Assembly (NCBI RefSeq): GCF_900168115.1
Contig: NZ_FUZC01000005.1
Location: 62,001 to 126,000 of the forward strand
Length of the DNA stretch: 64,000 nt
Direction of reading: 5' to 3'
DNA from: Salegentibacter salinarum
GTDB lineage: Bacteria; Bacteroidota; Bacteroidia; Flavobacteriales; Flavobacteriaceae
This document shows, one piece after another, positions 28,843 through 50,348 of this stretch; the stretch's first letter is position 1, and every line of letters begins with the position of its first letter. The position numbers and the translations under genes are program-made. The notes under the pieces were generated by a model. It saw only the letters and a list, made by a program, of their open reading frames with translations. It was not told the origin of the DNA and did not search any database.

Positions 28843-30060
28843 TTATGCATTTACAACTTCTTCATACTCAAATTTTCTCCTTAGCATAGCTTTTCTTTTT
28901 TTCTTTAACTTAATAATCCTATCATATTTTTTTTGTGCTAAATAATAATAAATTACAAAAAAAAGAAAATACATCACCATTGACTTTTGTCTCATTATTA
29001 TTCCAAGATTAGACATTACGAAGGTTAAGGCAAAAGAGGAAAGAAAGAAAACTACTAAACTCATCTTTACAGAGATAGGAGAATTTTTTAAAAAGGAAAT
29101 AAAATCTTTCTTAAGAATTTTAATAAATAGCAATAAATAAAGCAAATTCTCGACCGAGACTATTAATCCTAAAATGCCCGGAGCATCAAAAAATAGGGGT
29201 CTAAACCAAAATGTAAAAAGCTTTAAAGGTAAAGGATAATCTGAAATGGCAACACCAGATCCAGATTCACTCAAACCTTGAGAACGATCTTCGGAAAAAT
29301 TATCAAAATCTGACACAAGGTTATCAGAGTTTTCTAAACCTGCCATCCCTAGAATTTGATCCTGAACCAGTACTAACCCACCAATCATTCCAACATAAAT
29401 AAGTAATTTCTTACCGAAAGAAATTTTTTCTTTGCCTGTCATATATCCTAAAACGGTACCGACTGCTACAAATAGAAATACATGTGGGCGAATAAAATAA
29501 ATTATAGCGGACCCTATTAGTAATGTTACAAGCCTAGACTTTGGGTTCTTTAGGGCATAAGCAAACATCATTAGTCCTAAAAAAATGGGAGCACCCTTCC
29601 CTAAAGATGCTGTCCAAAAATGCATATTAGGCAAAAAAAGGGTTAGAATTAAAAGATCGAAATTTTTAAAAACCTTAATCTTAATAGGTATGTTTTCGCG
29701 AAAAAACATATAGGCATACACAAAGCCCAAGTATCCCAGCCAGGCAAAAAGAACCATCATCATCTCGTAAGAGAAACCAAACAAATTAATAAACGGCCAG
29801 GATAGAAAATCAATAAAAGTAGTACTGGTACCAAAATAATAGAACCAATCATCATTCAATTGAGGTCTCTCATAATAGGCTTTGGAATCCGAATTATTGA
29901 AAGAAGCATAAGTATAATAAACGCCAAAGAAGAATAAATGATAGAAGTACAATTTATTCATTAGATCCTTGGAAAACCATTTATGCTTTGAGGAATAAGC
30001 ATTAAAAATTGCTTGGTTTATACCAAAAAGAAATAATATTAAAACTAATGCTCCTATCAT
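28843..30060 (-). CDS. Wzy-like polysaccharide polymerase (EpsG-like membrane protein)
   Basis: 405 residues with about ten membrane helices (e.g. IGALVLILFLFGINQAIF and VAVGTVLGYMTG) and a periplasmic loop around residues 230-270 rich in Asp/Ser. The N-terminal SKAYYERPQ and MHFWTASLGKGAPIFLGL patterns resemble EpsG/Wzy polymerases, which link repeat units on the periplasmic side. No other polymerase is visible in the locus. It directly abuts the GNAT gene, suggesting co-transcription. These proteins diverge fast, so an O-antigen-ligase-like role cannot be excluded. Confidence 0.7.
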   Translation of the reverse strand: MIGALVLILFLFGINQAIFNAYSSKHKWFSKDLMNKLYFYHLFFFGVYYTYASFNNSDSKAYYERPQLNDDWFYYFGTSTTFIDFLSWPFINLFGFSYEMMMVLFAWLGYLGFVYAYMFFRENIPIKIKVFKNFDLLILTLFLPNMHFWTASLGKGAPIFLGLMMFAYALKNPKSRLVTLLIGSAIIYFIRPHVFLFVAVGTVLGYMTGKEKISFGKKLLIYVGMIGGLVLVQDQILGMAGLENSDNLVSDFDNFSEDRSQGLSESGSGVAISDYPLPLKLFTFWFRPLFFDAPGILGLIVSVENLLYLLLFIKILKKDFISFLKNSPISVKMSLVVFFLSSFALTFVMSNLGIIMRQKSMVMYFLFFVIYYYLAQKKYDRIIKLKKKRKAMLRRKFEYEEVVNA

Positions 30061-33678: not shown

Positions 33679-34905
33679 TCAAGTACTTATACCGAAATAG
33701 TCTTCTATCATTCGAATTTGTTTTAAAATACCCATCTCAGTAATTGCATAGCTTTTTGCTTTCTCGCCTGCTGAAATTCTTGCCGTTCGATCTTTTTCGA
33801 TTTTTCCTATCATTTCGGTTATAGCTTCTTTAGAACCTGGTCGCACTAACCAGCCACCATGACTCTCCCTGACCACCGTTTCTACATCACCAACAGCTGA
33901 TGCAATCACGGGTACGCCAGCAGCAAAAAATTCACGAAGTTTTAAGGGTGAATAATGAAATCCTTCATTGGATTGAGAAGGTAAGACAGCCAAGTCAAAA
34001 CTACTTATATAAGAATGTATTTCGTTATGAGGTACATTCCCGGAGAATATTACTCGATCGTGTAAACCGTAATTTTCTACCTTTTCTTGCAAACGTAGAC
34101 GTTCAGGTCCTTCCCCAACTAACAATAATTTTGCTTCCGGCATCGTAGACGAAACATCTAAAAAGGCTTCAACTAATAAATCCAGGCTATGGAATTTACG
34201 AAAACTACCAACCCATCCTATTACAAAATTATTGGTTAATCCAAGAGATTCACGTACCACACTACCTTTTGCCTTATCAAACATTTTCTGTGAAACCGTA
34301 CATGGCGTGATAAGAATACGACTTTCAGGAATCCCTAGATCCATAACCGCACGTTTTACATCTTCGCTTACAACCAGAATAAGGTCAGCCTTTTTGCAAG
34401 GATGCGCGTCTCCCCGACGTTTGGCAAACCACTCCCAGCCTAGTCGGTGCACTCCCCACTTTTTGGACTCCCAAACATATGGAGCATCAACAAACAGGAC
34501 TGATGGGACTCCTAATTTTTTTGCTAGCTTTAATCCTCTTGTTTGAAAAAGATCATGATGCTGCCACACAAATGGTGCATTCTTGAATCGCTCTAGGTCT
34601 ATGGAAAAGGTTTTTTGTTCTTCATGATACCAGCGTAAATCCTTTGCAAACATTTCAAAAAGCTTCGCTAGATATGTATGGCGAAACCAATTTGGTTTGC
34701 TCTTTTTTGCTTTTCCAATATCGGCCGGAAAACACCTTGCCCTAATCTGGCCTGCTGAATACGAAGATTCGCCTGCTAGAACTTCCGCACTTCCATAATG
34801 ATCATCAAAGCCATCTGCCCAGTTAGCTATCGTTACCCATACAGCATCTGCGCGTAATCGATTAAAACCTGGAGCTACAAGTGGGACTGACACCATTTTA
34901 GTCAT
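33679..34905 (-). CDS. Glycosyltransferase family 4, in a G+C-richer block
   Basis: 408 residues. The C-terminal GT4 domain has IGWVGSFRKFHSLDLLVEAF and PSQSNEGFHYSPLKLREFF. The N-terminal half is unusually long and aromatic (WFRHTYLAKLFEMFAKDLRWY; WQHHDLF). Base use is visibly richer in G+C than the neighbours: 35 of 60 bases in 34381-34440. It overlaps the pyruvyltransferase gene by 8 bases (ATGACTAA), so the two form a coupled pair that may have arrived together. Confidence 0.85.
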   Translation of the reverse strand: MTKMVSVPLVAPGFNRLRADAVWVTIANWADGFDDHYGSAEVLAGESSYSAGQIRARCFPADIGKAKKSKPNWFRHTYLAKLFEMFAKDLRWYHEEQKTFSIDLERFKNAPFVWQHHDLFQTRGLKLAKKLGVPSVLFVDAPYVWESKKWGVHRLGWEWFAKRRGDAHPCKKADLILVVSEDVKRAVMDLGIPESRILITPCTVSQKMFDKAKGSVVRESLGLTNNFVIGWVGSFRKFHSLDLLVEAFLDVSSTMPEAKLLLVGEGPERLRLQEKVENYGLHDRVIFSGNVPHNEIHSYISSFDLAVLPSQSNEGFHYSPLKLREFFAAGVPVIASAVGDVETVVRESHGGWLVRPGSKEAITEMIGKIEKDRTARISAGEKAKSYAITEMGILKQIRMIEDYFGIST

Positions 34906-35959
34906 TTTTATTATTTTTTTCTACGATATCCAGGGCATTAGAAACTTTAGCCTCAATATTTGACTTATCATTACCTATATAAAAAATAGCTTCCTGCTCT
35001 GACTCAAAGCAGTCTATGTAATTCCCAATCTTCCTGTAATGATTATCAAGTAATACCTGTGGTTTTCCTAATAGCGTGGAAACGATGTGTCCATGTAACC
35101 TATCTGTCAAAACAATTTTACCCCTACATAAGATTCGAGTACCTCTATTAAACCTTCTTTTGGCAAGTAAGTCGAAAGAAGCTGCATTTATACTCCAGAA
35201 ATGATCCCGAATTAATTCGGACTTACGAAAAACACCTTGAATAAAGCGTCGAACCCGAACTGTAAACTTTGGACTGAATCTAGAATAGAACCTCCCAGGT
35301 TCTCCTTTAAGCCAATCTAATTTTTCTGTTTTAAAATTAAAATTTTCTCTTTTTTCACCTGCCGATTCATGGTCGGTCCTAGATAGCCAAACAACATCCA
35401 CAACAGGCTTACCGCTCTGTGCTACAGGCCCCATAGCCAAAGCCATATCTGGACAAAGTTCTACGTTCAAATCCAGTTCTTTTAAAGTATTTAGGCTAGC
35501 ATGGTCACGCATAAGTATATGAAGATCTTTATGAGCTCTTGCTATTTGTCCAAATTTCTCTTTTTTAGAATCATCATCAAAATGGACACTTTGGGGTAAT
35601 TGAATAATCTTCATGTCTGAAAATAATTTAATTATCCGTTCTCGAAACAATTGGTGTTCCGGCCACACGGAACCTAGATTACCACCACCGTGAAGCAAAA
35701 CAACTCCCTCATTGCCTAAACGCTTTCGAAGCGCTTTCTCAGAAAAGCCGTATATATCGCATTGATATACAATATCAACTCCAATTTCCCTTAAAGCAGC
35801 TTTTTCACCCAACCAAATTGCATTATCACCCACATTATTATGGTTTGGAAAATCAAGTAAGGCTACTTTTGTCCCCTTATTCAACAAACGACCGAGGCAA
35901 GCGAAAAGTAATTTCTGCTGATCTTTTATATTACTTATAAAAATATTCTTCTCATTCAT
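34898..35959 (-). CDS. Polysaccharide pyruvyl transferase family protein
   Basis: 353 residues. FPNHNNVGDNAIWLGEKA (about 39-56), VVLLHGGGNLGSVWPEHQ (about 88-105) and VLTDRLHGHIVSTLLGKP near 290 are the three hallmark segments of the CsaB/ExoV pyruvyltransferase family. Members transfer pyruvate from PEP to a sugar as a ketal, adding negative charge; some relatives act as glycosyltransferases instead. It is translationally coupled to the following GT4 gene and probably modifies the sugar that GT4 adds. Confidence 0.88.
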   Translation of the reverse strand: MNEKNIFISNIKDQQKLLFACLGRLLNKGTKVALLDFPNHNNVGDNAIWLGEKAALREIGVDIVYQCDIYGFSEKALRKRLGNEGVVLLHGGGNLGSVWPEHQLFRERIIKLFSDMKIIQLPQSVHFDDDSKKEKFGQIARAHKDLHILMRDHASLNTLKELDLNVELCPDMALAMGPVAQSGKPVVDVVWLSRTDHESAGEKRENFNFKTEKLDWLKGEPGRFYSRFSPKFTVRVRRFIQGVFRKSELIRDHFWSINAASFDLLAKRRFNRGTRILCRGKIVLTDRLHGHIVSTLLGKPQVLLDNHYRKIGNYIDCFESEQEAIFYIGNDKSNIEAKVSNALDIVEKNNKND

Positions 35960-36076: not shown

Positions 36077-36844
36077 TTAAATTTTCTTTACTTTCTTTAT
36101 TAACTCTGGAGAATCAAACTTTAATATATCGTAAAGTTTCTCATCGACGGATATTCTTTTAATGGGAGACTTTTTTACTAGCTTAAGAAAATACTCATAT
36201 TCCAAATCTGGATTATGAAGACCTTGATTTTGTATATGCATTTTATTAGCCTTCACGTCTCGTATGTTATCTCTATAGCCTTCTGCATAAGGTGTTTTAA
36301 AGAAAGTAAAACCGGTAATAAATACCTCCTCGCATTGAGAAGTCAATGCTGAATAAAGAACATAAAAACCCCTTGTGGGATGATATTCATCAAATAATTT
36401 TGATATTTTTTTATAGTCGGAATACGGAAGCATATATATAGCATTATTCGTATTTAAATACTTTTTAAAGTAGTTGAACATCCATTGCCACCCATTTTTA
36501 TCGAAGCGAGGTTGAATAAGGTATTGAACCCCAAACTTGTTAAATAAATTCCAATCTAATGGGCCGCCGCCTCCGGAATCCATATTTTCATGAAAATTAT
36601 GGAATAAAATATCGGTTTTGGAGCCCAGATATTTCTCATTTTTGGGATTCCAGGTAACTAAAGCTTTATTCATACGAATTACATAATCATAAGTATCAAT
36701 GATAGGTCCATTCTCTTGGTCATAAGCCGAATCTGCCGGTCCTACAACCGCTACACTTTTATTGTAAAATATTTTTTTCGGTTTAAAAATCCGAATTCTA
36801 AAAGGCATGATCAATAGTCCAAAAAATGCTCTGAAAATTTTCAT
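36077..36844 (-). CDS. GT29-like sialyltransferase
   Basis: 255 residues with the sialylmotifs of family GT29, best known from animals. Motif L is VAVVGPADSA...IDTYDYVIRMNKA (31-61), motif S is HPTRGFYVLYSAL...VFITGF (155-179), and motif VS is H-x4-E at H210/E215 (HNPDLEYEYF). A hydrophobic stretch near the N-terminus (FFGLLIMPFRI) could touch the membrane. It should transfer an ulosonic acid from a CMP donor. The coupled upstream genes encode a HAD phosphatase (ATGA overlap), a CMP-sugar synthetase and an aldolase, which would supply that donor. The family call rests on visible motifs, and the donor is inferred. Confidence 0.75.
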   Translation of the reverse strand: MKIFRAFFGLLIMPFRIRIFKPKKIFYNKSVAVVGPADSAYDQENGPIIDTYDYVIRMNKALVTWNPKNEKYLGSKTDILFHNFHENMDSGGGGPLDWNLFNKFGVQYLIQPRFDKNGWQWMFNYFKKYLNTNNAIYMLPYSDYKKISKLFDEYHPTRGFYVLYSALTSQCEEVFITGFTFFKTPYAEGYRDNIRDVKANKMHIQNQGLHNPDLEYEYFLKLVKKSPIKRISVDEKLYDILKFDSPELIKKVKKI

Positions 36845-37470
36845 AATACACTGAATGAATTAATATACGATCTTCCCTTATCCTGGATTGAAGGATTATT
36901 ATACCCTAAAAAATCTATATCACTAGCCACAGCAGCTTCATAATCATTTATAGAGTCTCCAATTAATGCAGTCTCATCTGTTTTATACCTGAACTCCATT
37001 AAAAGTTCTTCTACTAATTTTTTCTTTGGAGTTGGAGATCCATTAATACTTATGAAAAAAGAATCAAGCTTTAATTTCTTACATAAAAAACGTAATTCTT
37101 CCTGATCTGATCCAGAAACAATATGCATCTCAAAATTATTATAATTCCTCTTTATAAAGTTACAAGTGTCCTCTATTAAAAGTTTTTTATTTAAAAGTTC
37201 ACGCTTCATCACCTCAGAAAATCTTGAAGCCCATACAGTAACCTCTTCTTCTGATATTTTTTCTTTTCTAATTTCTTCAAAAAAATACCTAAACTTTACA
37301 TAGCGAGATAAACCTCCATTTTTGAGATGAAACTTCATTAATTCTTGAACTTGTTCCTGAGGATAATCCTTTAAAACCAGCTCAAAACCCTTATTTCTCA
37401 CAGGCATGGAATCCATGATCACACCGTCAAAATCCCAAAGAATATTTTTTTTATTTTTTAATTGTATCAT
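36841..37470 (-). CDS. HAD-superfamily phosphatase
   Basis: About 210 residues. HAD motif I is LWDFDGVIMDS (nucleophile D13 and D15 with the preferred start); SGSDQEE is motif II; a Lys segment GSPTPKKKL and ALIGDSINDYEAA form motifs III/IV. The mobile-cap insert looks like a phosphoglycolate-phosphatase-type C1 cap. I start at ATG 37470; an in-frame ATG at 37497 is also possible. Between a CMP-sugar synthetase gene and a GT29-like gene it is placed to remove phosphate from an ulosonic-acid phosphate, as KdsC or NeuAc-9-P phosphatase do. That role is inference. Confidence 0.8.
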   Translation of the reverse strand: MIQLKNKKNILWDFDGVIMDSMPVRNKGFELVLKDYPQEQVQELMKFHLKNGGLSRYVKFRYFFEEIRKEKISEEEVTVWASRFSEVMKRELLNKKLLIEDTCNFIKRNYNNFEMHIVSGSDQEELRFLCKKLKLDSFFISINGSPTPKKKLVEELLMEFRYKTDETALIGDSINDYEAAVASDIDFLGYNNPSIQDKGRSYINSFSVL

Positions 37471-38137
37471 AGACTGCTTCCGCAATTTTAAAATCATCTT
37501 CCCAATCTACATCTAAGGAAGTCAGTTTATTCATCTCAAATAAATAAGGTTTCTCACCTACCCTATCGCCTTTTTTCTCATATATATCCTTAGGAGTAAT
37601 AAAAATTGCACTATTTATCTCGTAAAGCAATTCAAGTTCCTGTGTTTTTGGCCAACGTTCATTCCCTACTCTATTAATAATATCATTAAGTTCTTTTTTC
37701 CATAAAAAATTCTGAAAAGTCGTTACAGACATTAAAGAATCAAACCCTTTCTTAAGGCCCGTATAAAAACTTTTTATAGAATTTTCATAAGTTTCGGCAG
37801 TTACCATTGGTGAGGTCACGTGCGTCCAAAGTACATATTCACTATTGGTTATTGTAGGAACGTAGGCAATTAAATCACTTAAACTTGTAGTACTTAAGGC
37901 TAAATAATCAGGACGTAAATCTATTTTAAGTTTAGGAAAATCTTTTTTAAAATTTCTAGCAACGGCTATAGATTCATCATCGTTTGTAGAAAGTATTACT
38001 TCATCTACATCTAAATTCGATAACTGATGTAACTTCAGTTCCAACAAGCCTCCTTCAAAATTCGAGAATTTTCTGGTATTCTTATTTTTAACACGTTCAC
38101 TACCCTTACGGGTAGGTAAAAAAATTGAAATGGACAT
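37451..38137 (-). CDS. CMP-ulosonate synthetase (acylneuraminate cytidylyltransferase family)
   Basis: 228 residues. SIFLPTRKGSERVKNKNTRK is a variant of the family's nucleotide-binding signature (xPARxGSxRxxxKN), and VLWTHVTSPMVTAETY matches the central conserved stretch. It should join CTP to a keto-deoxy acid sugar, giving the CMP donor. It is clearly different from the second cytidylyltransferase of the locus at 45980-46693. It sits 6 bases after the aldolase fusion gene and overlaps the phosphatase gene. The sugar is unknown. Confidence 0.85.
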   Translation of the reverse strand: MSISIFLPTRKGSERVKNKNTRKFSNFEGGLLELKLHQLSNLDVDEVILSTNDDESIAVARNFKKDFPKLKIDLRPDYLALSTTSLSDLIAYVPTITNSEYVLWTHVTSPMVTAETYENSIKSFYTGLKKGFDSLMSVTTFQNFLWKKELNDIINRVGNERWPKTQELELLYEINSAIFITPKDIYEKKGDRVGEKPYLFEMNKLTSLDVDWEDDFKIAEAVYDTIKK

Positions 38138-38143
38138 AAAATT

Positions 38144-39682
38144 TTAAATTAAAGCAAATACCGATTGAGACTCTAAGCTATCATACAGAGTTGGGGTAAT
38201 AGAAAGTGGGATATAACTGCTGTTTTCCCGTAGACGCTCAAAAATATATTCATTTTCATTGAACAATTCCAGTTCCTGGGTTTTGATCTCTCCTGAATAC
38301 CCGTCATAACCAGCAAAATAAAATTTTTCAACCCCTAACTTGAGTGCCGTTTCTATTGCTAAAGAAGTTACCGATTCATGAAATTTATCGGTAAATTTTA
38401 TTGCCTGTAGCTGGAATGCCACCTCCTTTAAACTTTCAGGTATATATGTTCCCATCGTTCTTGGATAAGGAGGTAATATAACCAGTTTATCCTTAATATT
38501 CATTTCATTATAACTATCTTCTAAACGATGACCTTCATTTCCTGCCAGGCAATGGATTTGTAAGGTATGTACATCTTTAAATTCCTGGGAATTTTTAGAA
38601 CTGGAATGGATAAGGCAAATATCTTCCTGTCGTTTTATAAATTCATTAATTGCTTTGGAATGTTTTTTCCCACTAGGACCACCGCCAATTATTAATGCCG
38701 ATTTAAATTTTTTCTCTTCTTCTAAATTATTTAGATCTATATTGTCTTCAATTCCTTTTGACTGATTAGAAAGTGCTCTTATAATACTGTTTAAAGAATA
38801 ATAACGTTTTGTAACCCAAGACATTACCTCCTTTTGTGGAAGGGAATTCGCACCTGAAACCATATATGGAAGGTTTGTTCCCCAATCATGCGCTCTTCTT
38901 AAATCTTCAAAAGGATCTACTACTTTGCTTAAAGCATTAAAATCAAGGTCCAACTCACCTTTTCCATTAAGCGCGGTTAACAGTAATTCGGTCTGCAAAT
39001 TTCCCGCGCCCCTACCCATTCCTGTAACTGTAGCATCTACGATAGAGACACCGCATTCTATAGCTGTTAGTGTGTTTATAAGAGCTAGTTGTAAATTATT
39101 ATGTCCATGAAAACCAATTTTTGTATTGGTTTGATTTCTAACAATGTCAAAGGTTTTCTTTACATCTTCAGGATACACCCCTCCAAAAGAATCTACCATA
39201 TAAAAATAATCTGCAATCCCGTTAACTTCTTTAATCTGTCCCAGAAATTCCTTTTCATTTTCCCAGTTAGACATATACATAACGTTAAAACCAACTTCAA
39301 AACCAAGTTTCTTAACGGCTGCTGCTAGATCCAATGCCCTTTTAAAGTTTTTAGGATCTATAGCTATTCTTACCATAGAAATATAGCCTACACAAGGTTC
39401 TAAGAGGTTTGGAACATGCTCTGCTCTTACATCTTTCTCATTTAATATAATAACAAGTTTTTTTGAGCTTAATTCTTTAGACTCTTCCAGAACATACTGC
39501 GGGCAGTAAAAATACTCCCCTAGATAAGAATTCATCGGGTTAGAACGATATCCTATTTCAAGATAATCAATAGGGAGACTATTAAAAGCATTAAAGTATT
39601 TTTTTACCAATATTTTATCAAAATCCCAATTCGTATAATAACCACCATCACGTAGGGTGCAATCTAAAATTTTTATATTCAT
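38144..39682 (-). CDS. DRE-TIM (HMGL-like) aldolase fused to a second Rossmann-like domain
   Basis: 512 residues. The N-terminal domain (1-~300) is a DRE-TIM metal-dependent lyase: DCTLRDGG (D7-G14), GFHGHNNLQLAL (metal-binding HxH, about 191-198) and GMGRGAGN (about 221-228). The last two resemble 4-hydroxy-2-oxovalerate aldolases, which join pyruvate and an aldehyde reversibly. The C-terminal part (~325-512) begins SALIIGGGPSGKKHS, a nucleotide-binding-like fold loosely recalling DUF115/MAF proteins; I cannot assign it. The next three genes encode CMP-sugar synthetase, HAD phosphatase and GT29-like enzymes, so it may make a keto-deoxy acid without PEP. That pathway is inference. Confidence 0.78.
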   Translation of the reverse strand: MNIKILDCTLRDGGYYTNWDFDKILVKKYFNAFNSLPIDYLEIGYRSNPMNSYLGEYFYCPQYVLEESKELSSKKLVIILNEKDVRAEHVPNLLEPCVGYISMVRIAIDPKNFKRALDLAAAVKKLGFEVGFNVMYMSNWENEKEFLGQIKEVNGIADYFYMVDSFGGVYPEDVKKTFDIVRNQTNTKIGFHGHNNLQLALINTLTAIECGVSIVDATVTGMGRGAGNLQTELLLTALNGKGELDLDFNALSKVVDPFEDLRRAHDWGTNLPYMVSGANSLPQKEVMSWVTKRYYSLNSIIRALSNQSKGIEDNIDLNNLEEEKKFKSALIIGGGPSGKKHSKAINEFIKRQEDICLIHSSSKNSQEFKDVHTLQIHCLAGNEGHRLEDSYNEMNIKDKLVILPPYPRTMGTYIPESLKEVAFQLQAIKFTDKFHESVTSLAIETALKLGVEKFYFAGYDGYSGEIKTQELELFNENEYIFERLRENSSYIPLSITPTLYDSLESQSVFALI

Positions 39683-39686
39683 AGCT

Positions 39687-41525
39687 TTATTTATTCAAAT
39701 ATTGTTCCTTTTCTATACTCATGCCCTGGAGAGAAATCATTTCTCTGAACTTGTCCGATTTTTCCAAAAGTTCCATAAATGTTCCTATTGCTTCTATCAC
39801 TCCATTGTTCAATAATATAATTCTGTCAGCATTAATAATCGTAGACAACCTATGGGCAATCATAAAAATGGTATATTTTCCTTTTAAATTATCTATATTC
39901 TGCTGGATCGCCCTTTCAGTTTCCCCATCAAGGGCCGAGGTTGCTTCATCCATAAATAGGAAATCAACGTCTTTAAACAATTCCCTGGCAATAGATAAAC
40001 GTTGCCTTTGACCACCACTGATATTAATTCCATTATTACCTAAAAACTCCTCCTCCTTATTTTCCAGGTCATAAACAAAATCATAAATAGCCGCCTGCTT
40101 CAAAACTCTATTAAATTTTTGAATATTTTCCTCAGTTTTTTCAGCCCAAAGTGATACATTATTATATACGGTATCATTAAAAATAGGAGCCTCTTGTGAG
40201 ATATATCCTATTCTTTTCCTGTAATCATAAAGATCCAAATTCCTGGTAGAAACGCCATCGATTAAGAGCTCACCTTTTTCGGGGAGTATCAAACCTGCTA
40301 AAACATTCATAAGCGTGGTTTTTCCCGAACCGCTTTCACCTATAATAGCAATACTTTCATTCTTTGCCACCTCAAAGTTTATATTTCTTAATATTGGGGT
40401 AGAATTATAATAAAAATCCACATTGTTTAATTTAAGGCCTTGCTTTAAATTAGCAAATTTCGTTTTTCCATTTTTTTCCTTATTTTTCCTTAATTCATTT
40501 GTGAAGTCTTTCATATTCTCAAGGGATGCCGATGCTCCAAGAAACTTATTCCAATGCTCTTGTAAGGACATTAAGTAAGTCATTGCCCTATATAAAAAAA
40601 GCAAACTTAAAATTATCAATCCAATATCAGAATTAAAATATGTAACTTGAATTAATATGGCTACAATTACAACCAACATTGTAATTGGCTCTCGCATGGC
40701 CTTTAAGGTGGAGTCTACAATCCCCAGTCTCCTTTGTAAATTTTCTAAATCATTTATTTGATATTTTAATTTTCCTCCATAATATTTATTGATTCCAGTA
40801 GCTTTTAAATATTTATAAATAGCAACGTGTTGTATAAGAAAACCCTGAAACCTATGGGCACTAACGGTATACTTTCGGGAGAGATATTTGGTTTTTTTAA
40901 AAAGCCATTTAAACAAATAGTTACTTAGTGCACCTCCAACGGCTACTATAATTGCAAATTCAGCGTTTGCTGAAAATGCCAATAACAGATAGACTGTAAT
41001 AAGAACCCCATATTCAATTGCTTTAAAATAGCTTCTATAAGCTATATTAACCCTTCCAACTTCTGAGCTGAATGTATTTTGAATCATCCCAGGATCAGAT
41101 TTGAGGAATGATTTAAAAGAATAAGTGTTTAACAAATTAATATTTGTAATTCTTATTTCCCTCATAAAAAGTTGTTGATAAACGACCCTATAATAGCCTT
41201 CGATAAAAGTAACAATACCTTTTAAACAGAAAAAAACAAGGATTATAAGTAATACACTTACAATATTTAGCGTAATTCCAATAGATTCCAGAAATTCCGG
41301 TAAAAAGCTTAGTTTACCCAGCTCCTCTCCTCCATTCGCAGCGGTTGTCTCGTTATCGGTATTAGACATTCTTAGTAATGGAATGAACATAGCCAAACCA
41401 AAACCGTCCAGGGTACCTTTTAATATACTTAGAAAAAAGGCAATAAATATTCTATATCTAAGGAAACCATAGAAATAGAAAAAATATTCAAAATTATTTT
41501 TTATAATCTTTTTTAGTTTATCCAT
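39687..41525 (-). CDS. ABC exporter, probable lipid-linked oligosaccharide flippase (PglK/MsbA-like)
   Basis: 612 residues: about six membrane helices in the first 330 residues, then an ATPase domain with Walker A GESGSGKTT (near 396), signature ISGGQRQR and Walker B FLFMDEATSALD, and a switch His in MIAHRLS. The single-chain half-transporter form matches PglK, which flips the bacillosamine-linked heptasaccharide in Campylobacter. No Wzx-type flippase is visible anywhere in the locus, so this protein probably moves the repeat unit across the inner membrane. A plain lipid A or drug exporter is the alternative. Confidence 0.82.
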   Translation of the reverse strand: MDKLKKIIKNNFEYFFYFYGFLRYRIFIAFFLSILKGTLDGFGLAMFIPLLRMSNTDNETTAANGGEELGKLSFLPEFLESIGITLNIVSVLLIILVFFCLKGIVTFIEGYYRVVYQQLFMREIRITNINLLNTYSFKSFLKSDPGMIQNTFSSEVGRVNIAYRSYFKAIEYGVLITVYLLLAFSANAEFAIIVAVGGALSNYLFKWLFKKTKYLSRKYTVSAHRFQGFLIQHVAIYKYLKATGINKYYGGKLKYQINDLENLQRRLGIVDSTLKAMREPITMLVVIVAILIQVTYFNSDIGLIILSLLFLYRAMTYLMSLQEHWNKFLGASASLENMKDFTNELRKNKEKNGKTKFANLKQGLKLNNVDFYYNSTPILRNINFEVAKNESIAIIGESGSGKTTLMNVLAGLILPEKGELLIDGVSTRNLDLYDYRKRIGYISQEAPIFNDTVYNNVSLWAEKTEENIQKFNRVLKQAAIYDFVYDLENKEEEFLGNNGINISGGQRQRLSIARELFKDVDFLFMDEATSALDGETERAIQQNIDNLKGKYTIFMIAHRLSTIINADRIILLNNGVIEAIGTFMELLEKSDKFREMISLQGMSIEKEQYLNK

Positions 41526-42478: not shown

Positions 42479-43933
42479 TTAATTTTGCTTCAATAATAAT
42501 TTTAGAGTTTCTCTATAATCTACCTCTTTTTCAGAAACCAAATTCCGCTTTTGGTCTAAAATATTTCTAATTTTATTCTTAATAATTTGTATATCTTTTT
42601 CTTTGCAAGGAAAGGCCCAACCCTCTTCAATAAGATTTTTATAATAATTGATGCCTGTCTCACTGAGTATTAAAGAAAATCGTTGCAATATTGCTGCTTC
42701 TGTTATGGAGCCCGATGAAAATGATAAATGTAAATCACATTCTTCAAGTACCAAAGGAAGAGGAGCACTACTGGAGTATTCGATAGTAATATTCTCTAAT
42801 ATCCCCAAGTCTTTAAATTTATCTTCAACAGATTTCTTTTCCATCTCGCTCATTCTTGGGTGAAAACGTAACCACCACTCAAACTCTTCTTTAGTTTCCT
42901 CTATCACCTTATATAGATACGATGGAATAATATCATTAATTGGTTGTAGGGTAAATAAAACTACCGGCTTTAGTTTCTGTAACTTTATGTTATTCTTTTT
43001 TTTCTGCTTAAGAAATCCAATCCAGGGATTCCCCCCCAAGAGAGTCTTATGAGGCGTATTATTTGTCCAAATATTTATATCCTTATAGCTGGACTTACTC
43101 CATACCCAAAAAATATTAGGTAATATATTATAGCCTTCAACTGGTATTTTACTAAAATAATAAGCAGGATGGGCTTTACCCAACCCACCGTGTTGCAGGT
43201 CTATACTGCTAACTCCTAGTTTTCGTGCTGCAAGGTTAAATCCATAATGCGCATCTGAGTAATAAACAAGGCTAACTGCATATTTAGGTTTGGTTAACTT
43301 TATAATTTTTGTATAAACTTTTTCCCAGGATTTTATAGACAGTATCGTTCGAATTAATTTATTCTTATGGTATCTGGCATCTATGCCTGTTTTTTCATGA
43401 ACACTTTCTAGAAAAGCTTCGAATTCAGGAAGCTGTTTTAACTCCTCAACATACCTATTTTTATCCCGTGAGCTTGAATATAGTGGTAACATACTGTTTA
43501 TATCTACAATACGATCAGGACGATTGGCGCAGTTCTCTTTTACCACGGGATATTCTAAAAAATAAGAATTTTCTCCCTCTCCTTCAAGGTAGTCCATTAA
43601 AGGTTCTATAAATCTATTGAATTCTTTATTCTTATATATAATACGTTGTTCATAGATACTGCTAAAAAGAAAAGTAGCCTCTTCCAGCTTCAGTTTTTTA
43701 ATATAAACCCATGCTTTTACAAGCTTTCTTACTTTATTAAAGATCTTACTATATATTAGTGAAGGCCTTTTAGTTTGGCCAACACCCTTAACTAATGTTA
43801 TGAAAAAAATTTTCTTTTTTATAATAGGCCATACGTGTACCCCTCCTACTTCCCAGGTTTCTACTGGATATTGTTTTTCCCATTCCGCAAAAAAGATTGA
43901 TAAATTAGTGAGATCTATTTTACTTTTGGCCAT
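42479..43933 (-). CDS. Unassigned GT-B-like transferase next to PseI
   Basis: 484 residues without a confident family. The second half looks like a GT-B transferase of the capsule type: SIDLQHGGLGKAHPAYYF (HGG loop), VVLFTLQPINDIIPSYLY, WWLRFHPRM, and a donor-site-like LSFSSGSITEAAILQRF. The first half is charged and helical. Its start overlaps the end of pseI by 14 bases, so it is translated with the pseudaminic-acid operon. It is a reasonable candidate for the transferase that uses CMP-pseudaminate. A role replacing the missing PseG hydrolase is less likely. Both are inference. Confidence 0.6.
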   Translation of the reverse strand: MAKSKIDLTNLSIFFAEWEKQYPVETWEVGGVHVWPIIKKKIFFITLVKGVGQTKRPSLIYSKIFNKVRKLVKAWVYIKKLKLEEATFLFSSIYEQRIIYKNKEFNRFIEPLMDYLEGEGENSYFLEYPVVKENCANRPDRIVDINSMLPLYSSSRDKNRYVEELKQLPEFEAFLESVHEKTGIDARYHKNKLIRTILSIKSWEKVYTKIIKLTKPKYAVSLVYYSDAHYGFNLAARKLGVSSIDLQHGGLGKAHPAYYFSKIPVEGYNILPNIFWVWSKSSYKDINIWTNNTPHKTLLGGNPWIGFLKQKKKNNIKLQKLKPVVLFTLQPINDIIPSYLYKVIEETKEEFEWWLRFHPRMSEMEKKSVEDKFKDLGILENITIEYSSSAPLPLVLEECDLHLSFSSGSITEAAILQRFSLILSETGINYYKNLIEEGWAFPCKEKDIQIIKNKIRNILDQKRNLVSEKEVDYRETLKLLLKQN

Positions 43934-44969
43934 GTTCTATCAAATCTAGATTGAATGCTGTACCCTTTTCTACGTTTTTATTGATTCTTTTTCCCAGAAT
44001 ATCAATTAAATATTTTGGATGCAACCCAAATCCAGGTCTAATACTTCTTACGTTTTTCTCTGTGATCTTTTCTCCAACTTTAATATCTTCTACCACATAA
44101 AGGGAACGGCTAAAATCCCTTCCTTTCTTCTGTTTTTCTGTCAGTGTATAGTCAACCTTTCCTACAGCTTTTTCTGCCTCCCTAACTGCCTTTACCATTT
44201 CGGTAAATTCCTCTTCATCCATAGAAAAAGAAGCATCGGGCCCACCTATGCTTTTATCCAATATAAAATGCTTTTCAATTATTTTAGCCCCCATAGCGGC
44301 AGCGACAATAGGCACCGTACTTCCCATAGTATGGTCTGATAATCCGGAAATAACATCATAACGCTCAGCAAGGTCTTTTATCATGACCATATTGGCCTCT
44401 TCTATAGGAGCCGGATAGGAAGAAGTACATTTTAATAAGGCAATATCATTATTACCCATTCTTCTACAAGCATCTAAAGCTAGTTCAATGTCCTCCTGCC
44501 CTGCAATGCCGGTAGAGATAATTATAGGTTTAGCTTTGGAAGCAACATACTCAATCAATGGGATATCTGTGATCTCAAACGAAGCAATTTTATAAGCCGG
44601 AACATTTAAATCCTCCAGGAAATCTACGGCGGTTTTATCAAATGGAGAGGAAAAGCATATCAAACCTTCTTCATCAGCAGCCTCGAAAATTGCTTTATGC
44701 CACTCCCAGGGCGTATAGGCTTGTTCATATAGATTATAAAGATTTTTTCCCTCCCAGATCGTACCTTTTATTATAAAGTCCTTTTTTGTTGAATTAATGG
44801 TAATTGTATCAGGGGTGTAAGTTTGTAATTTAATACAATCAGCACCAGCTCTTTTGGCAGCCTTAATTGTTTTCAAAGCTGTTTCAATACTGCCATTATG
44901 GTTAGCAGATAACTCTGCAATAATAAATACAGGTTCAGGTTCACCTATTACTTTATTTCCTATTTTCAT
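43920..44969 (-). CDS. pseI: Pseudaminic acid synthase (NeuB family)
   Basis: 349 residues. It condenses PEP with a 6-deoxy-diacetamido-altrose to give pseudaminic acid. The NeuB barrel shows IAELSANHNGSIETAL (residues ~17-32), ADCIKLQTYTPDTI, KIASFEITDIPLI, SGLSDHTMG and EKHFILDKS; the DASFSMDEEEF segment and the ITDIP stretch favour PseI over NeuB or LegI. The C-terminal SAF/antifreeze-like domain spans about 285-349. It is coupled to the double-GNAT gene (TAATG) and to the next transferase gene. Confidence 0.9.
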   Translation of the reverse strand: MKIGNKVIGEPEPVFIIAELSANHNGSIETALKTIKAAKRAGADCIKLQTYTPDTITINSTKKDFIIKGTIWEGKNLYNLYEQAYTPWEWHKAIFEAADEEGLICFSSPFDKTAVDFLEDLNVPAYKIASFEITDIPLIEYVASKAKPIIISTGIAGQEDIELALDACRRMGNNDIALLKCTSSYPAPIEEANMVMIKDLAERYDVISGLSDHTMGSTVPIVAAAMGAKIIEKHFILDKSIGGPDASFSMDEEEFTEMVKAVREAEKAVGKVDYTLTEKQKKGRDFSRSLYVVEDIKVGEKITEKNVRSIRPGFGLHPKYLIDILGKRINKNVEKGTAFNLDLIEHGQK

Positions 44970-45973
44970 TATATAAATTTTTCAAATTTTAATTCTGATG
45001 CATTTTTGGAAATTTCTTTAAAAGATAATTTTTTAAATATTTTAATCGAAGGAATATTTTCTTTTAATACATAACCATAGACAACTTGCACTAAGGGTCT
45101 GTTTTCTATTAAAAATTGTATCCCGTTTTCCAATAGATAAGTTCCCAATCCCTTTCCAGTAAATTTTGGATCCAGAAGATAATTAATTTTAGCTATACTT
45201 TCCTTCTCTAGATCAAACCTAATTGAACCAGCCGCAACTCCTTGAACTTCTAAAAGGTAATATTCAAAATTTGTATTTTCCAATTTGGAAAAGAACCAAT
45301 TCGCATGCTCTTTTAAAGTGATTTTATCTTTATTAAAAGAAAATTCCCTCACTTTTTGATTATTCGCCCAGGAATATGTCAAATAGAAGTCAGAAATTTC
45401 CACATGTCGTAATTCGTTTTTTTTATTAAACTTAGAATGAATTTTAACATCAATATATTTCTGTTGAAAAAAACAATGCTCTTTTAAATCCAATTCAAAA
45501 CCAAACCCAGCTTGCCCAAGGGCATTATATAGTCTTGGTCTTAAATCAAAGGCATAGGTATAAATTTTATGAAGATTAATCTCATTGAATGCAACCTTTT
45601 CCAGTAATTTCAAATAATTGACCCAATGAAATTCAAAATATTCTTTTTCCAGACTAGTATTCATTATAAAGGATATCTCAGCATTCTTATCTGTCCACTT
45701 AATATGGACTAGTCCTCCATAGCCTATACATTCTTCGTCTTTTAAATAAGAAAAAAGAATTTGGGAGGGTTTGTCTAGTTCAAATAGATTAGATATTACA
45801 GACTCGAAATAAATATCCTGCTTCTCTTTTGTAAGAGGCTCATTTTGTCGTAAATGATACATTTGCTCATTACGCCATTTCATAATATCATAACGATCCT
45901 CCATACGAATCGGAACTATAGAATACTCTCCTGAGGAAAATACTTGTTGATCTAATATTTTATAAACACTCAT
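44969..45973 (-). CDS. Two-domain GNAT acetyltransferase (PseH-like)
   Basis: 334 residues made of two consecutive GNAT domains. The first (1-~175) contains DIMKWRNEQMYHLRQNEPL and a Phe-rich acetyl-CoA region. The second (~188-334) contains YSWANNQKVREFSFNK and GKGLGTYLLENGIQFL (motif A), closer to PseH and to the GNAT tail found fused to PseG in some bacteria. One domain should do the N-acetylation step of pseudaminic-acid synthesis. The second may add another acyl group, or may be a relic of a PseG-PseH fusion that lost PseG. It sits between the PseF and PseI genes. Confidence 0.75.
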   Translation of the reverse strand: MSVYKILDQQVFSSGEYSIVPIRMEDRYDIMKWRNEQMYHLRQNEPLTKEKQDIYFESVISNLFELDKPSQILFSYLKDEECIGYGGLVHIKWTDKNAEISFIMNTSLEKEYFEFHWVNYLKLLEKVAFNEINLHKIYTYAFDLRPRLYNALGQAGFGFELDLKEHCFFQQKYIDVKIHSKFNKKNELRHVEISDFYLTYSWANNQKVREFSFNKDKITLKEHANWFFSKLENTNFEYYLLEVQGVAAGSIRFDLEKESIAKINYLLDPKFTGKGLGTYLLENGIQFLIENRPLVQVVYGYVLKENIPSIKIFKKLSFKEISKNASELKFEKFI

Positions 45974-45979
45974 ACAAAT

Positions 45980-46693
45980 TTAGCTTTTAGAAAGCTTCAA
46001 GAAATATTTCGCCATTTCTAAATCTTCATATTCATCTATATCTATAGCCTTAATCCAATGAAGTGGGAAAAATGAATAATTTGGACCATAAAAACTCTTT
46101 GTATTAATAAGGGCTTCTTTTTTTGCTATCCAGATCGCCCCTGTGGGACAATATAGATCTGGTTGGTCTTGAGACCTTTTCATTCTCTCCTTCTCATCAA
46201 ACACGGGAGTGGCTTTTCCCGAAGGATCTAATTTATGGGCCCACCACGGGTTCATCCAGCCGTATTTAAAACAGCTAATTTGATACTCTACATCATTATT
46301 AAAAAAATGTTCAAGAGCTTCATCTATATCATTATTATCTCTTAAGGGGCAATTGGCCATTAACTGCACTACCACTTCATGTGATTGCATACCCGTTTCT
46401 TCCCACTGATTAAGTGCTTTAATAGTCGCCAGACTTATGGGGGAATGGTCATCTGCATTTTCATTTCTTAAAAAAGGAACTTTTGCACCATATTTCCTTC
46501 CTACCTCGGCAATTTCTTCATCATCGGTACTCACTAACACCTCATTTATATATTTAGATTTAAGAGCAGCTTCAATTGTCCAGGCCAACATTGGCTTACC
46601 ATTTATTTCTAAAATATTCTTTTTAGGAATTCTTTTAGAACCACCTCTTGCAGGTATAACTGCAATGATCTTTTTATTTACCAAATTGTCCAT
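45980..46693 (-). CDS. pseF: CMP-pseudaminate synthetase (acylneuraminate cytidylyltransferase family)
   Basis: 237 residues. IAVIPARGGSKRIPKKNILE is the exact family signature at the N-terminus, followed by VVVQLMANCPLRDNNDIDEA and YCPTGAIWIAKKEAL. It activates the ulosonic acid with CTP, giving the CMP donor. Its place between pseI and pseB/C genes supports pseudaminic acid or a derivative; sequence alone would also allow LegF or NeuA. It overlaps the SDR gene by 16 bases. Confidence 0.87.
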   Translation of the reverse strand: MDNLVNKKIIAVIPARGGSKRIPKKNILEINGKPMLAWTIEAALKSKYINEVLVSTDDEEIAEVGRKYGAKVPFLRNENADDHSPISLATIKALNQWEETGMQSHEVVVQLMANCPLRDNNDIDEALEHFFNNDVEYQISCFKYGWMNPWWAHKLDPSGKATPVFDEKERMKRSQDQPDLYCPTGAIWIAKKEALINTKSFYGPNYSFFPLHWIKAIDIDEYEDLEMAKYFLKLSKS

Positions 46694-47436
46694 CCTCCAT
46701 CAACTTTTAAATTATGACCCGTCATATTTGTAGAGCTTTTAGAAATTAAAAAATCTACAGGACCTATCACGTCTTCTTCTTCCAACATTCTTTGTTGGGG
46801 AGTAAGTTTTTTATACCTATTCTCGAAGTGCTCGTCAGTTCTCCCTTTTATACCTCCAAAACTTACACAGTTCACCCTAATTTCAGGAGCCAACCGCACT
46901 GCTAGTTCTTTGGTAAGGTGAATTTGAGCTGCTTTGGAAACACCATAATGAATGGCAGATGAATTCTCAAAATCATCATAGAGCGCCGGGGTTGGTGCTA
47001 CCACTCCATACATAGAGGAAATAAAAATAATATTCTGTAATTTATGGAACATTTGATTTTTAACCGCCATGGAGAGCTGATAAGGAAAAACTACATCCAT
47101 ATAAAACTCACCAGAAAAATTTTCATTGGAGATTGTTTTGTCGTCTTCTAATTTTAAAAAATTTAAGGAACGTGCATTGTGGATTATATCAGTTAGTACA
47201 ATATTATGAAGTTGTAGATATTCTAAAATAATATTTTTGGCGTTTTCTGTATTAAAATCAACCTCAATAACATGTAGAGCTTCAAGCTTATAATGAGATA
47301 ATTCCTTTTCCTTATTATCAAGAAATCGCTCTTTATCCGTAGATGAAGTAATAACTGTAAACCTTTTTTTTAGAAAATGCTTTACTAGTTGAAATCCTAC
47401 TTTTCCACTTCCTCCTGTGATTAAAATACTTTTCAT
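46678..47436 (-). CDS. Short-chain dehydrogenase/reductase in the pseudaminic-acid operon
   Basis: 252 residues with a full SDR set: ILITGGSGKVGFQL (NAD(P) loop), S140/S141 in FISSMYG, and Y164-x3-K168 in IHYGVSKAAQIH. GHNLKVDGGWTIW is a typical SDR ending. SDRs of this kind (e.g. PtmA in Campylobacter) occur in flagellin ulosonic-acid operons, but their exact step is unclear. It overlaps the Gfo/Idh/MocA-like gene by 4 bases and pseF by 16 bases, so it belongs to the operon. Confidence 0.83.
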   Translation of the reverse strand: MKSILITGGSGKVGFQLVKHFLKKRFTVITSSTDKERFLDNKEKELSHYKLEALHVIEVDFNTENAKNIILEYLQLHNIVLTDIIHNARSLNFLKLEDDKTISNENFSGEFYMDVVFPYQLSMAVKNQMFHKLQNIIFISSMYGVVAPTPALYDDFENSSAIHYGVSKAAQIHLTKELAVRLAPEIRVNCVSFGGIKGRTDEHFENRYKKLTPQQRMLEEEDVIGPVDFLISKSSTNMTGHNLKVDGGWTIW

Positions 47437-48329
47437 TTCCTCCCTTTTTCCAAGATTTTAATTATTTCAAGGGTTTCTTCCCTTTTAATATTTTCTTCTT
47501 CTTTATTTATGACTTTGACAAATTTATGTAGCGAATTCTTAAAACAGGTATAGGAATCACTAAATTCTTTTGTTACACAACCTTTCTCCCCATAGAAATT
47601 TAGACTTACAGTGATCGGTATAGTTCCGGTTACTTTTAAATAAGCCGTGGTATTTTCCCATTTAACAATGCAATTAGTAATAGCAACGCTTTGTAAACAT
47701 TTAACACCCAACAGCTTTCCCCTATGAGGAAGGCGTGCGATAATAGGCTCTATAATATGGATAGCATAAGTATCCCATTTTTTCGGTATTGCCGCTTCAA
47801 CATGAACTATTTCACCTATTTGATCTTTTTCTTTCTCTGTTAAGTCTAGTTCTTTAGCAAAACGAATGGAGGAACAGGAAAAAACTTGGTTTTCATATTG
47901 CTGTTCCTTTAAAATTTTATTAGCTTCTTTTACCGATAAAGCTAAAGGCTTATCAATAAATATAGGTATCCCGGCTTTTAAAAACGGAAATGCCATTTTA
48001 TAATGGTTTTTGGCATCATCCCGTGCCAATAGAACCGCATCAACCTTACCAAGCATATCCTCTAGATTTTCTACTACAACTTCAATTTTTGCAGAAGCTG
48101 CAATATGTTTTGAAGTCGCTATATCCTGGGTCCAAATATGGGTAACCACACCAAATTTACCCAAACCATCTTCTGGAAAATTCTGTTTTGCCAAATATTC
48201 AGAAATAATAGGAAAAGGGCAGTATTTCATTTTTTCCTTATCATACCCATTAAATATAGCACTCCAGGAATAAGGATGACCGTTACCTTCACTCATTCCT
48301 ATAATTCCTATTTTTAATTTTTCGGCCAT
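47433..48329 (-). CDS. Gfo/Idh/MocA-family oxidoreductase in the pseudaminic-acid operon
   Basis: 298 residues. LKIGIIGMSEGNGHPYSW is an N-terminal Rossmann fold, and DAVLLARDDAKNHY then PIFIDKPLALSV resemble the family's EKP-like motif (here DKP). The second half is the substrate domain. Such enzymes oxidise or reduce a hydroxyl/keto group on sugars with NAD(P). It overlaps the aldo/keto-reductase gene by 16 bases. Together with the SDR and AKR it points to an extra redox modification of the ulosonic acid or its precursor; the reaction is unknown. Confidence 0.78.
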   Translation of the reverse strand: MAEKLKIGIIGMSEGNGHPYSWSAIFNGYDKEKMKYCPFPIISEYLAKQNFPEDGLGKFGVVTHIWTQDIATSKHIAASAKIEVVVENLEDMLGKVDAVLLARDDAKNHYKMAFPFLKAGIPIFIDKPLALSVKEANKILKEQQYENQVFSCSSIRFAKELDLTEKEKDQIGEIVHVEAAIPKKWDTYAIHIIEPIIARLPHRGKLLGVKCLQSVAITNCIVKWENTTAYLKVTGTIPITVSLNFYGEKGCVTKEFSDSYTCFKNSLHKFVKVINKEEENIKREETLEIIKILEKGRK

Positions 48330-49150
48330 CTGGATGGTATTAAGATGTTATCAGTTATTCTATTTTCTAACTCAGGTAATGAATCCGCTTTCGTTAGGCT
48401 TTTAATATTCTCCTTCAGTTGTAATTCGCTTTCCACTCCTATAATTACTTTATCAACAAATTGCTTATCCAGAACAAACTTTAAAAGCGTTCCGTTTAAG
48501 GGAATATTTTTCTGAAGTTGACTTATAAGGGGTTTTACTTCTTCGAAAAAACCGTCGAGTTGCTGAGGATCCATAAAAAACAGGCCTTGTAAAAAAGCAG
48601 ATCTGGCATGAATTTCACACCCCCCGGACTTAAGGATTTTCATAGCGTTTTCAAATCTTCGGTCGAAATAATTGTAAGGAACTTGAACTAGGTCTGGAAA
48701 ATATCCCTTTTCTAGAAGCAACTCTAATTCCTCTGGTTCATTCAGAGAAAAACCGATTTTATTTATTTTTGCCTCTGATTTAAATTCTATTAATTCCTCC
48801 CAATGCTCCGAGTGCCCTATAAGTTCTATAGGGCGATGAGCTAGATATCCATAAAAAGATTGGACACCTAATTTTTTTAAACTATCCTCAAGCTGAATAG
48901 AAATAGATTCACCTTTGGAAGGCGGGAGGAATTTCGAAACCATTTTAAAAGCAGAAAGATCATTTTCCCCAAGTACATCTTCAGAACTCCCATAGGCAGA
49001 TGCAGAATCCAAAACATCTATTTTATAAGATTTGGCAGTTTCTAGAATTTTAACAACTTCCTCCGCCGTGGTTTGCCCACTGTTATTGGAAATACCATAG
49101 GGAAGACCAAACTGAACAGTTCCTAAACCAAGTTTCTCGCTAATCTTCAT
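48314..49150 (-). CDS. Aldo/keto reductase in the pseudaminic-acid operon
   Basis: 278 residues. LGLGTVQFGLPYG starts the barrel. The catalytic tetrad is complete: D48 and Y53 in LDSASAYGSS, K73 in VSKFLPP, H105 in YLAHRP. A late NADPH-site segment reads KVIIGVESELQLKENI. It should reduce a carbonyl or oxidise an alcohol with NADP(H). It overlaps pseC by 11 bases and the Gfo-like gene by 16 bases. The sugar step is unknown, since standard pseudaminic-acid synthesis needs no such enzyme. Confidence 0.83.
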   Translation of the reverse strand: MKISEKLGLGTVQFGLPYGISNNSGQTTAEEVVKILETAKSYKIDVLDSASAYGSSEDVLGENDLSAFKMVSKFLPPSKGESISIQLEDSLKKLGVQSFYGYLAHRPIELIGHSEHWEELIEFKSEAKINKIGFSLNEPEELELLLEKGYFPDLVQVPYNYFDRRFENAMKILKSGGCEIHARSAFLQGLFFMDPQQLDGFFEEVKPLISQLQKNIPLNGTLLKFVLDKQFVDKVIIGVESELQLKENIKSLTKADSLPELENRITDNILIPSRWPKN

Positions 49151-50345: not shown

Positions 50346-50348
50346 AAA

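Follow-up and report, generated by a model that had tools for sequence, protein, structure and literature searches.

How could a bacterium build an ulosonic acid activated with cytidine monophosphate (CMP) without the phosphoenolpyruvate (PEP)-dependent synthase with which, to our knowledge, all known routes of this kind (those to sialic, pseudaminic and legionaminic acids and to 3-deoxy-manno-octulosonate, Kdo) start? This question is raised by four minus-strand open reading frames (ORFs) of Salegentibacter salinarum, which exactly fill positions 36077-39682 of a 64,000-nucleotide stretch of contig NZ_FUZC01000005.1 (positions 62,001 to 126,000), hereafter the window. An earlier note on this DNA had proposed that here an aldolase resembling the pyruvate-dependent 4-hydroxy-2-oxovalerate aldolases takes the place of the synthase. 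The analysis reported here partly supports this interpretation, which is right in outline, with three corrections: the conserved core comprises three genes, the aldolase carries a predicted Maf-like C-terminal domain, and by its sequence it is not a 4-hydroxy-2-oxovalerate aldolase. The chances seem evenly balanced that these genes represent a PEP-independent synthesis of CMP-3-deoxy-2-ulosonic acids by a DRE-TIM aldolase with a sialyltransferase-like domain, serving the surface glycans of a number of Bacteroidota and some other bacteria, and that T4-like phages took it up as an aldolase-CMP-synthetase fusion.

A conserved three-gene core

The first gene of the set encodes a DRE-TIM aldolase fusion of 512 residues (ALD, 38144-39682), which the HMGL-like Pfam family matches with 84.5 bits (cut-off 29). 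It is followed by a PseF/NeuA-like cytidylyltransferase (37451-38137, 228 residues, PF02348), the proposed CMP-ulosonate synthetase; by a HAD-IA phosphatase (36841-37497, 218 residues, PF13419), proposed to dephosphorylate the aldol product; and by a homologue of GT29-type sialyltransferases (36077-36844, 255 residues, PF00777), the proposed transferase in the loci that bear GT29. From ALD on, the genes are spaced by a 6-bp gap, a 47-bp overlap (counted from the first possible start codon) and a 4-bp overlap, and all four proteins exceed the curated Pfam cut-offs, so that the tightly packed gene set of the earlier note stands as it was described. The genome contains one full-length ALD, whose nearest named relatives are those of Christiangramia sediminis and Gramella sp. 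AN32, with 81% and 74% identity over the best segment.

The gene order was compared among 88 loci, mostly from Bacteroidota, comprising the window, seven relatives from 59 other genomes and the best 80 of 153 matches in named genomes. This collection was seeded with ALD motifs and is biased to near relatives; about 86 of its loci are distinct, as L034 and L044, and likewise L035 and L096, are probably the same contigs. The profiles of the neighbouring families were built from the same 88 loci whose neighbours they count, and their members were verified with Pfam or NCBIfam in the window and in part of the loci. A cytidylyltransferase is encoded no more than four ORFs downstream of ALD in all 88 loci (and within four ORFs upstream in two), and a HAD protein at the same distance downstream in 79. 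Also, the gene after ALD lies on the same strand in every locus, and in 81 it overlaps ALD or begins within 20 bp of it. Beyond these two families, every neighbour family is present within six ORFs in at most 29 of the loci. The conserved unit therefore consists of three genes, ALD, cytidylyltransferase and HAD, and it recurs across genera and in another phylum, which makes the arrangement more than a product of chance. In contrast, GT29 lies within seven ORFs after ALD in 20 loci only, so that of the four-gene order for which the earlier note looked to other genomes the core recurs throughout and the sialyltransferase homologue in a part of the loci. This gene is optional in the cassette, being found in 20 of the 57 loci with a PseF-like partner and in none of the 31 with only a KdsB-like one. 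In C. sediminis (L039), one ALD is followed by a PseF-like and a KdsB-like cytidylyltransferase together with two GT29 genes.

A second sample, collected with the ALD profile at E ≤ 1e-60, returned 9 of 395 Bacteroidota genomes, the window's own included. The nine loci found in the eight other genomes, four already in the first set and five new, all have both the cytidylyltransferase and the HAD gene. Moreover, the same order is present on a Leisingera plasmid (Alphaproteobacteria), where an ALD of 26% identity precedes a cytidylyltransferase and then a HAD hydrolase. The first of these proteins is annotated with a family name and no function ('aldolase catalytic domain-containing protein'), the second as a 3-deoxy-manno-octulosonate cytidylyltransferase, and the pair occurs in all three Leisingera records with a full-length match. 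Relatives on other plasmids that consist of the barrel only (Mesorhizobium, Paraburkholderia, Priestia and Legionella adelaidensis) were rejected as members of the same cassette, their neighbours being different and their functions probably others. For example, in a plasmid of a Mesorhizobium nodule isolate (L120) and in Paraburkholderia pSYMBR3459 (L121) the barrel stands alone, annotated as hypothetical, preceded by short-chain dehydrogenase/reductase (SDR) genes and followed by a HAD-IA protein, a related arrangement that probably belongs to a different pathway.

The two enzymes that follow the cytidylyltransferase in the window retain the residues typical of their families. The HAD protein matches PF13419 (HAD_2) with 59.5 bits (cut-off 23.8), and D22, D24, S128, K158, G180, D181 and D185, which we take to be the four HAD motifs, are invariant in 29 of 29 aligned members. 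For GT29, the match to Glyco_transf_29 (PF00777) reaches 58.6 bits (cut-off 23), and the family profile finds the structures of a mammalian alpha-2,3-sialyltransferase (E 4.6e-5) and of ST6Gal1 (E 6e-4). In all 19 sequences aligned, G35, A37, S39, D53, R57, N59, P156, T157, G159, T177-F181, H210 and E215 are invariant, these blocks being presumably sialylmotif-like.

The aldolase barrel and its C-terminal domain

The N-terminal domain of ALD (residues 1-315, 38738-39682, minus strand) is a DRE-TIM/HMGL-type metallo-aldolase barrel (PF00682, E 1e-23). A profile of eight ALD sequences has as its best match PDB entry 3dxi ('Putative aldolase'), over residues 5-315 with an E value of 5.4e-143, and it also matches 4-hydroxy-2-oxovalerate aldolases with E values from 1.9e-21 to 2e-18. 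The HxH and GMGRGAGN motifs pointed out in the earlier note are indeed present, and every residue of HGH (192-194) and GMGRGAGN (221-228) is kept in the 88 loci. R11, D12, H192, H194 and N228 are invariant in the 88 ALDs and are found also in 17 of 17 rows of an alignment that includes the annotated 4-hydroxy-2-oxovalerate aldolases of L124 and L125; we assume that the R-D, HxH and GN residues are those that bind the metal and the pyruvate in the pyruvate-aldolase family. At position 15, all 88 ALDs have a tyrosine where L124, L125 and 4lrs have a histidine after RDG, presumably the equivalent of DmpG His21, the proposed acid-base of 4-hydroxy-2-oxovalerate aldolases. Judged from these alignments, the residues that hold the metal and the 2-oxoacid are present in ALD and the acid-base is a different one.

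The family models lead to a similar picture. In NCBIfam, the pyruvate aldolases score best (109 and 97 bits, versus 57 for isopropylmalate synthase) and many DRE-TIM models match weakly, the 97 bits being those of TIGR03217, the 4-hydroxy-2-oxovalerate aldolase equivalog, whose NCBI cut-off is 286. Thus, the resemblance to these aldolases holds for the metal and pyruvate residues and fails at the equivalog level, and by both the cut-off and the active-site histidine ALD would not be a 4-hydroxy-2-oxovalerate aldolase. The Pfam matches of ALD at E up to 0.01 are limited to HMGL-like and, below the cut-off, MptE-like; no match to the PEP-dependent synthase families (NeuB, PF03102; KdsA, PF00793) is obtained at this threshold.

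For the rest of the protein (residues 316-512, about 197 residues, 38147-38737), a Maf/GT42-sialyltransferase-like fold is predicted. The MptE-like Pfam model gives 23.5 bits for the window's domain, below its cut-off of 34.6, and at E ≤ 0.01 it matches 25 of 62 ALD C-terminal domains. The invariant residues of the domain are G, E, G-x-D, Y, E-N and Y, and past the G-x-D-G-Y block the conserved positions include no histidine. In a passage of PMC11339370, the central Maf domain is said to resemble Cst-II. The Maf-like domain of ALD probably binds the CMP-ulosonate, and would act as an additional transferase or, alternatively, in feedback sensing. Two other comparisons were not relied on, one to the adjoining GT29 as a homologue (31 columns, probability 45%, E 2e-4) and a weak one to a viral MptE-like protein (61 columns, probability 61%).

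Cytidylyltransferase partners and viral fusions

The window's cytidylyltransferase is a divergent member of its family, with 25.4 bits for CTP_transf_3 (PF02348), barely above the cut-off of 22.6, and 54.3 bits for the PseF equivalog TIGR03584, far below the cut-off of 205.7. Its family profile matches NeuA structures (E 3.4e-15), and R10, G12, S13, R15, K19, D209 and D211 are invariant in 17 of 17 aligned PseF-like partners; in the CTP_transf_3 partners we take R-GS-R to be the nucleotide loop, accompanied by D-x-D. The three partners of the KdsB type that were scanned (from Christiangramia, Leisingera and one viral fusion) score 261-283 bits and pass the cut-off of the NCBI subfamily PRK13368.1 (255), which places them near the enzymes by which a 3-deoxy-ulosonic acid is activated.

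A tree of 81 rows was built from 53 of the 92 ALD-linked cytidylyltransferases (thinned at 65% identity), the housekeeping KdsB of six of eight genomes and 15 other cytidylyltransferases. In this tree, one clade (support 100/100) unites 32 of the 35 PseF-like rows linked to ALD and excludes the PseF/NeuA-type enzymes found in the same genomes, the exceptions being L034, L088 and the second copy in L058. Likewise, 16 of the 19 KdsB-like rows, together with the viral fusions and Leisingera, form a clade (100/99) outside the housekeeping KdsB, the exceptions being L060, L126 and a distant second hit in L114. A deep-branching cytidylyltransferase beside a NeuB-family gene (L181, G014:C2:1808750-1810150) groups only with that second hit.

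NeuB-family genes are present in all eight genomes, so the absence of NeuB could not be used as an argument and synthases were instead counted against cytidylyltransferases. The number of CTP_transf_3 genes minus the NeuB-family genes and minus one KdsA (the shorter of the two DAHP_synth_1 genes of each genome, as read from length) equals the number of ALD-linked cytidylyltransferases in seven of the eight. Moreover, a NeuB-family gene is found in 22 of the 88 loci, and of the 74 loci flanked by 8 kb or more on each side 21 have one and 53 have none. Taken together, the separate clades, this bookkeeping and the few loci with NeuB argue that in general the cassette does not form an accessory part of a PEP-dependent operon.

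The closest connection between the two enzymes was found in a scan of viral contigs, which gave 33 ALD loci. In 29 of these, one ORF encodes both the ALD barrel and a KdsB-type cytidylyltransferase; where complete, the protein has about 550-590 residues, with the barrel at about 1-300 and the KdsB-type domain from about 314-351 to the end. The fusions amount to 14 distinct sequences at 90% identity, 8 at 70% and 4 at 50%, and Pfam finds HMGL-like plus CTP_transf_3 in the four scanned. In three of the other four viral loci (L127, L157 and L126) the cytidylyltransferase is the next gene, and the fourth (L158) is cut by the contig end; in L126, the row reads ALD, KdsB-like, GT29-like, PseF-like. 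Since bacteria encode ALD and the cytidylyltransferase side by side and viruses as a single protein, the two very probably work in one pathway, and the tie that the earlier note drew between the aldolase and a CMP-ulosonate-synthetase-type enzyme is thereby strengthened by gene order as well as by direct fusion.

Regarding the viral origin of these records, a T4-type major capsid or terminase match was obtained in 5 of the 18 tested (4 of 18 for each model), four of the five carrying the fusion; among 14 control genomes, 6 are positive with the terminase model as well, and none with the capsid model. The records with neither match may be fragments. No match was found in PHROGs for ALD or for three viral fusions, and the full-length fusion is absent from an annotated phage collection, where none of ten matching records covers 80% of the query. 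Finally, in the viral contigs looked at (among L128-L156) the fusion sits in glycan-gene islands with glycosyltransferases, a nucleotide-sugar dehydrogenase or epimerase, a sulfotransferase and a sub-threshold MptE-like protein, some of them with a T4-type capsid gene.

Proposed pathway, competing explanations and known systems

The reading that we moderately favor is that ALD makes the ulosonate from pyruvate, with no PEP-dependent synthase involved. First, the metal-dependent barrel would add an enolate, most likely that of pyruvate, to an aldose phosphate to give a 3-deoxy-2-ulosonate phosphate; then, the HAD enzyme would remove the phosphate, and the dedicated cytidylyltransferase would couple the free ulosonate to CMP. 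Finally, a sialyltransferase-type enzyme (in the window, GT29) would transfer the ulosonate to a surface polysaccharide. What the computations establish is the gene set and its conservation, the fusions, the separate clades, the relationships of the domains and the predicted fold, whereas all substrates and products, the sequence of the reactions and the part played by the C-terminal domain are inferred. In most loci the acceptor may be an aldose phosphate drawn from central metabolism, in agreement with the phosphatase of the cassette, and in some a modified one. No description of this pathway was found in the open-access papers searched. If it exists, genome searches based on NeuB and KdsA miss one class of acidic surface sugars; the aldolases related to 3dxi, a family already known by structure and annotation name and lacking a function, gain one; and phages carry a two-step fusion enzyme for ulosonate formation and activation.

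Several observations weigh against this pathway or against its uniformity. With Tyr15 in place of the acid-base histidine, both the donor and the aldol reaction itself are deduced from the resemblance to the family. Nine of the 88 loci have no nearby HAD gene, and in the sequences flanking the viral fusions no member of the cassette's HAD family was observed. In Pfam, the PseF-like partners are distant matches, that of G002 being below the cut-off and that of L113 unmatched at 1e-5 (five were scanned). The KdsB-type partners score below the cut-offs of both KdsB equivalogs in three of three cases (TIGR00466, 130-138 versus 155 bits; NF003948, 139-166 versus 281), so the sugar need not be Kdo. 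In the gene bookkeeping, G029 (84% complete) breaks the rule, and G009 fits only if a fragment of 45 residues is counted. Moreover, on an ALD tree of 66 of the 88 rows, in which the bootstrap is not settled, the type of partner (PseF-like or KdsB-like) switches about 15 times, at least six of them forced by well-supported branches, against a shuffled mean of 19.8, and this switching may mean different products. An NAD-dependent epimerase/dehydratase lies within six ORFs of ALD in 29 loci, with no fixed place, and in six (L042, L046, L047, L059, L085 and L088) it stands between ALD and HAD; the acceptor may thus differ between loci, these six possibly using a modified sugar. Finally, an HpcH-type aldolase is encoded within seven ORFs of ALD in 13 of the 88 loci, the window's cassette not among them, and ALD is then perhaps not the sole enzyme forming the C-C bond in every locus.

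This last point leads to the alternative that survives best, which we consider unlikely and still the most serious one: ALD would belong to the same CMP-ulosonate pathway and make or trim the acceptor, the pyruvate step being left to HpcH or to an enzyme encoded elsewhere. HpcH was gained or lost about nine times on the ALD tree (at least five of them forced; shuffled mean 10.4), and in ALD the histidine of the 4-hydroxy-2-oxovalerate aldolases is missing. The HpcH-bearing loci leave room for another step performed by ALD or for different final sugars. The best matches of the HpcH proteins of some loci are solved 2-keto-3-deoxy-sugar aldolases (2vws and 1dxe), a likeness that supports pyruvate aldol chemistry in the pathway. 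However, 75 loci have no HpcH within seven ORFs, and the viral fusion of ALD with the cytidylyltransferase is what would be expected for successive or neighboring steps.

Somewhat less probable is that ALD builds the ulosonate from another donor, such as a different 2-oxoacid or an acyl-CoA (the donor of relatives of the isopropylmalate-synthase type), leading to a branched or unusual CMP-activated acid. The DRE-TIM superfamily includes both aldol and Claisen enzymes; ALD matches many of its models weakly, and Tyr15 together with further invariant residues peculiar to the family points to an altered active site. Nonetheless, the pyruvate aldolases are its best-scoring relatives, with a clear distance to isopropylmalate synthase, and the KdsB- and NeuA-type relatives of its partners activate 2-keto-3-deoxy acids.

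It is improbable that the genes are accessory to the pse pathway, the product of PseI being the substrate of the cytidylyltransferase and of GT29. A pse operon is located at 43920-51365, about 4 kb from the four genes, a pse operon also stands beside the cassette in L032, and the NeuB-family genes of 22 loci as well as the distant kinship of the cytidylyltransferase to PseF would agree with such a role. On the other hand, this operon, as the earlier note had recognized, is separate and has its own PseI and PseF, 53 of the 74 well-flanked loci are devoid of a NeuB-family gene, the cytidylyltransferase falls in a clade of its own, and the bookkeeping fits in seven of eight genomes. Within the operon, extra aldo-keto reductase, GFO/IDH/MocA and SDR genes lie between PseC and PseF, a protein of 334 residues with two GNAT stretches occupies the position of PseH, and an NCBIfam scan of the six proteins of 43920-49150 gave no match to the PseG model; it may make a modified nonulosonic acid or use another route. 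The weakest explanation, an ordinary 4-hydroxy-2-oxovalerate aldolase or similar catabolic enzyme placed in a glycan locus by chance, would account for the family resemblance and is very improbable given the score of 97 versus 286 bits, the replaced active-site histidine and the constant association with a cytidylyltransferase. A CMP-phosphonate pathway was also considered and rejected, as a crude simple-pattern search for the PEP-mutase motif found none in the ORFs of the 88 loci.

The surroundings of the cassette in the window are those of a glycan locus. Next upstream of ALD is an ABC transporter gene (39687-41525, minus strand; PF00005, 107 bits), which adjoins ALD in the relatives L032 and L033 too and is a probable exporter of the glycan or its precursor. 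On the other flank of the four genes, a polysaccharide pyruvyl transferase is encoded at 34898-35959. Two further proteins of the locus, at 42479-43933 (484 residues) and 28843-30060 (405 residues), have no Pfam match at E ≤ 0.01, and relatives of both are present in neighboring loci.

Among known systems, 3dxi, which we take to be the N-terminal domain of BVU_2661 from Phocaeicola vulgatus (DRE_TIM_HOA_like in CDD), belongs to the same family as the ALD barrel; only this barrel was solved, and no function is attached to it. In L113, the locus of P. vulgatus, ALD adjoins a cytidylyltransferase-cluster gene that is placed in the ALD-linked clade, and there is no HAD gene within four ORFs. With DmpG, BphI and MhpE, ALD shares the DRE-TIM family and the RD(G), HxH and GN residues, whereas the tyrosine in place of the active-site histidine, the extra Maf-like domain and the glycan-gene context set it apart. 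The HpcH/RhmA/GarL aldolases are of another family, with relatives in the 13 cassettes mentioned above, of which the one scanned is under the equivalog cut-offs. The Maf flagellin glycosyltransferases and the GT42 sialyltransferases (CstII) would have a fold like that of the ALD C-terminus, which differs from them in being short and fused to an aldolase. Finally, the PEP-dependent routes (NeuB-NeuA, PseI-PseF and KdsA-KdsC-KdsB) consist of an enzyme that forms the C-C bond, in some of them a phosphatase (KdsC), a CMP synthetase and a transferase. The cassette would offer the same series, with a CMP synthetase of the same Pfam family, and would differ at its start, where a DRE-TIM metallo-aldolase, with no Pfam match to NeuB or to DAHP-synthase/KdsA, replaces the PEP-dependent barrel.

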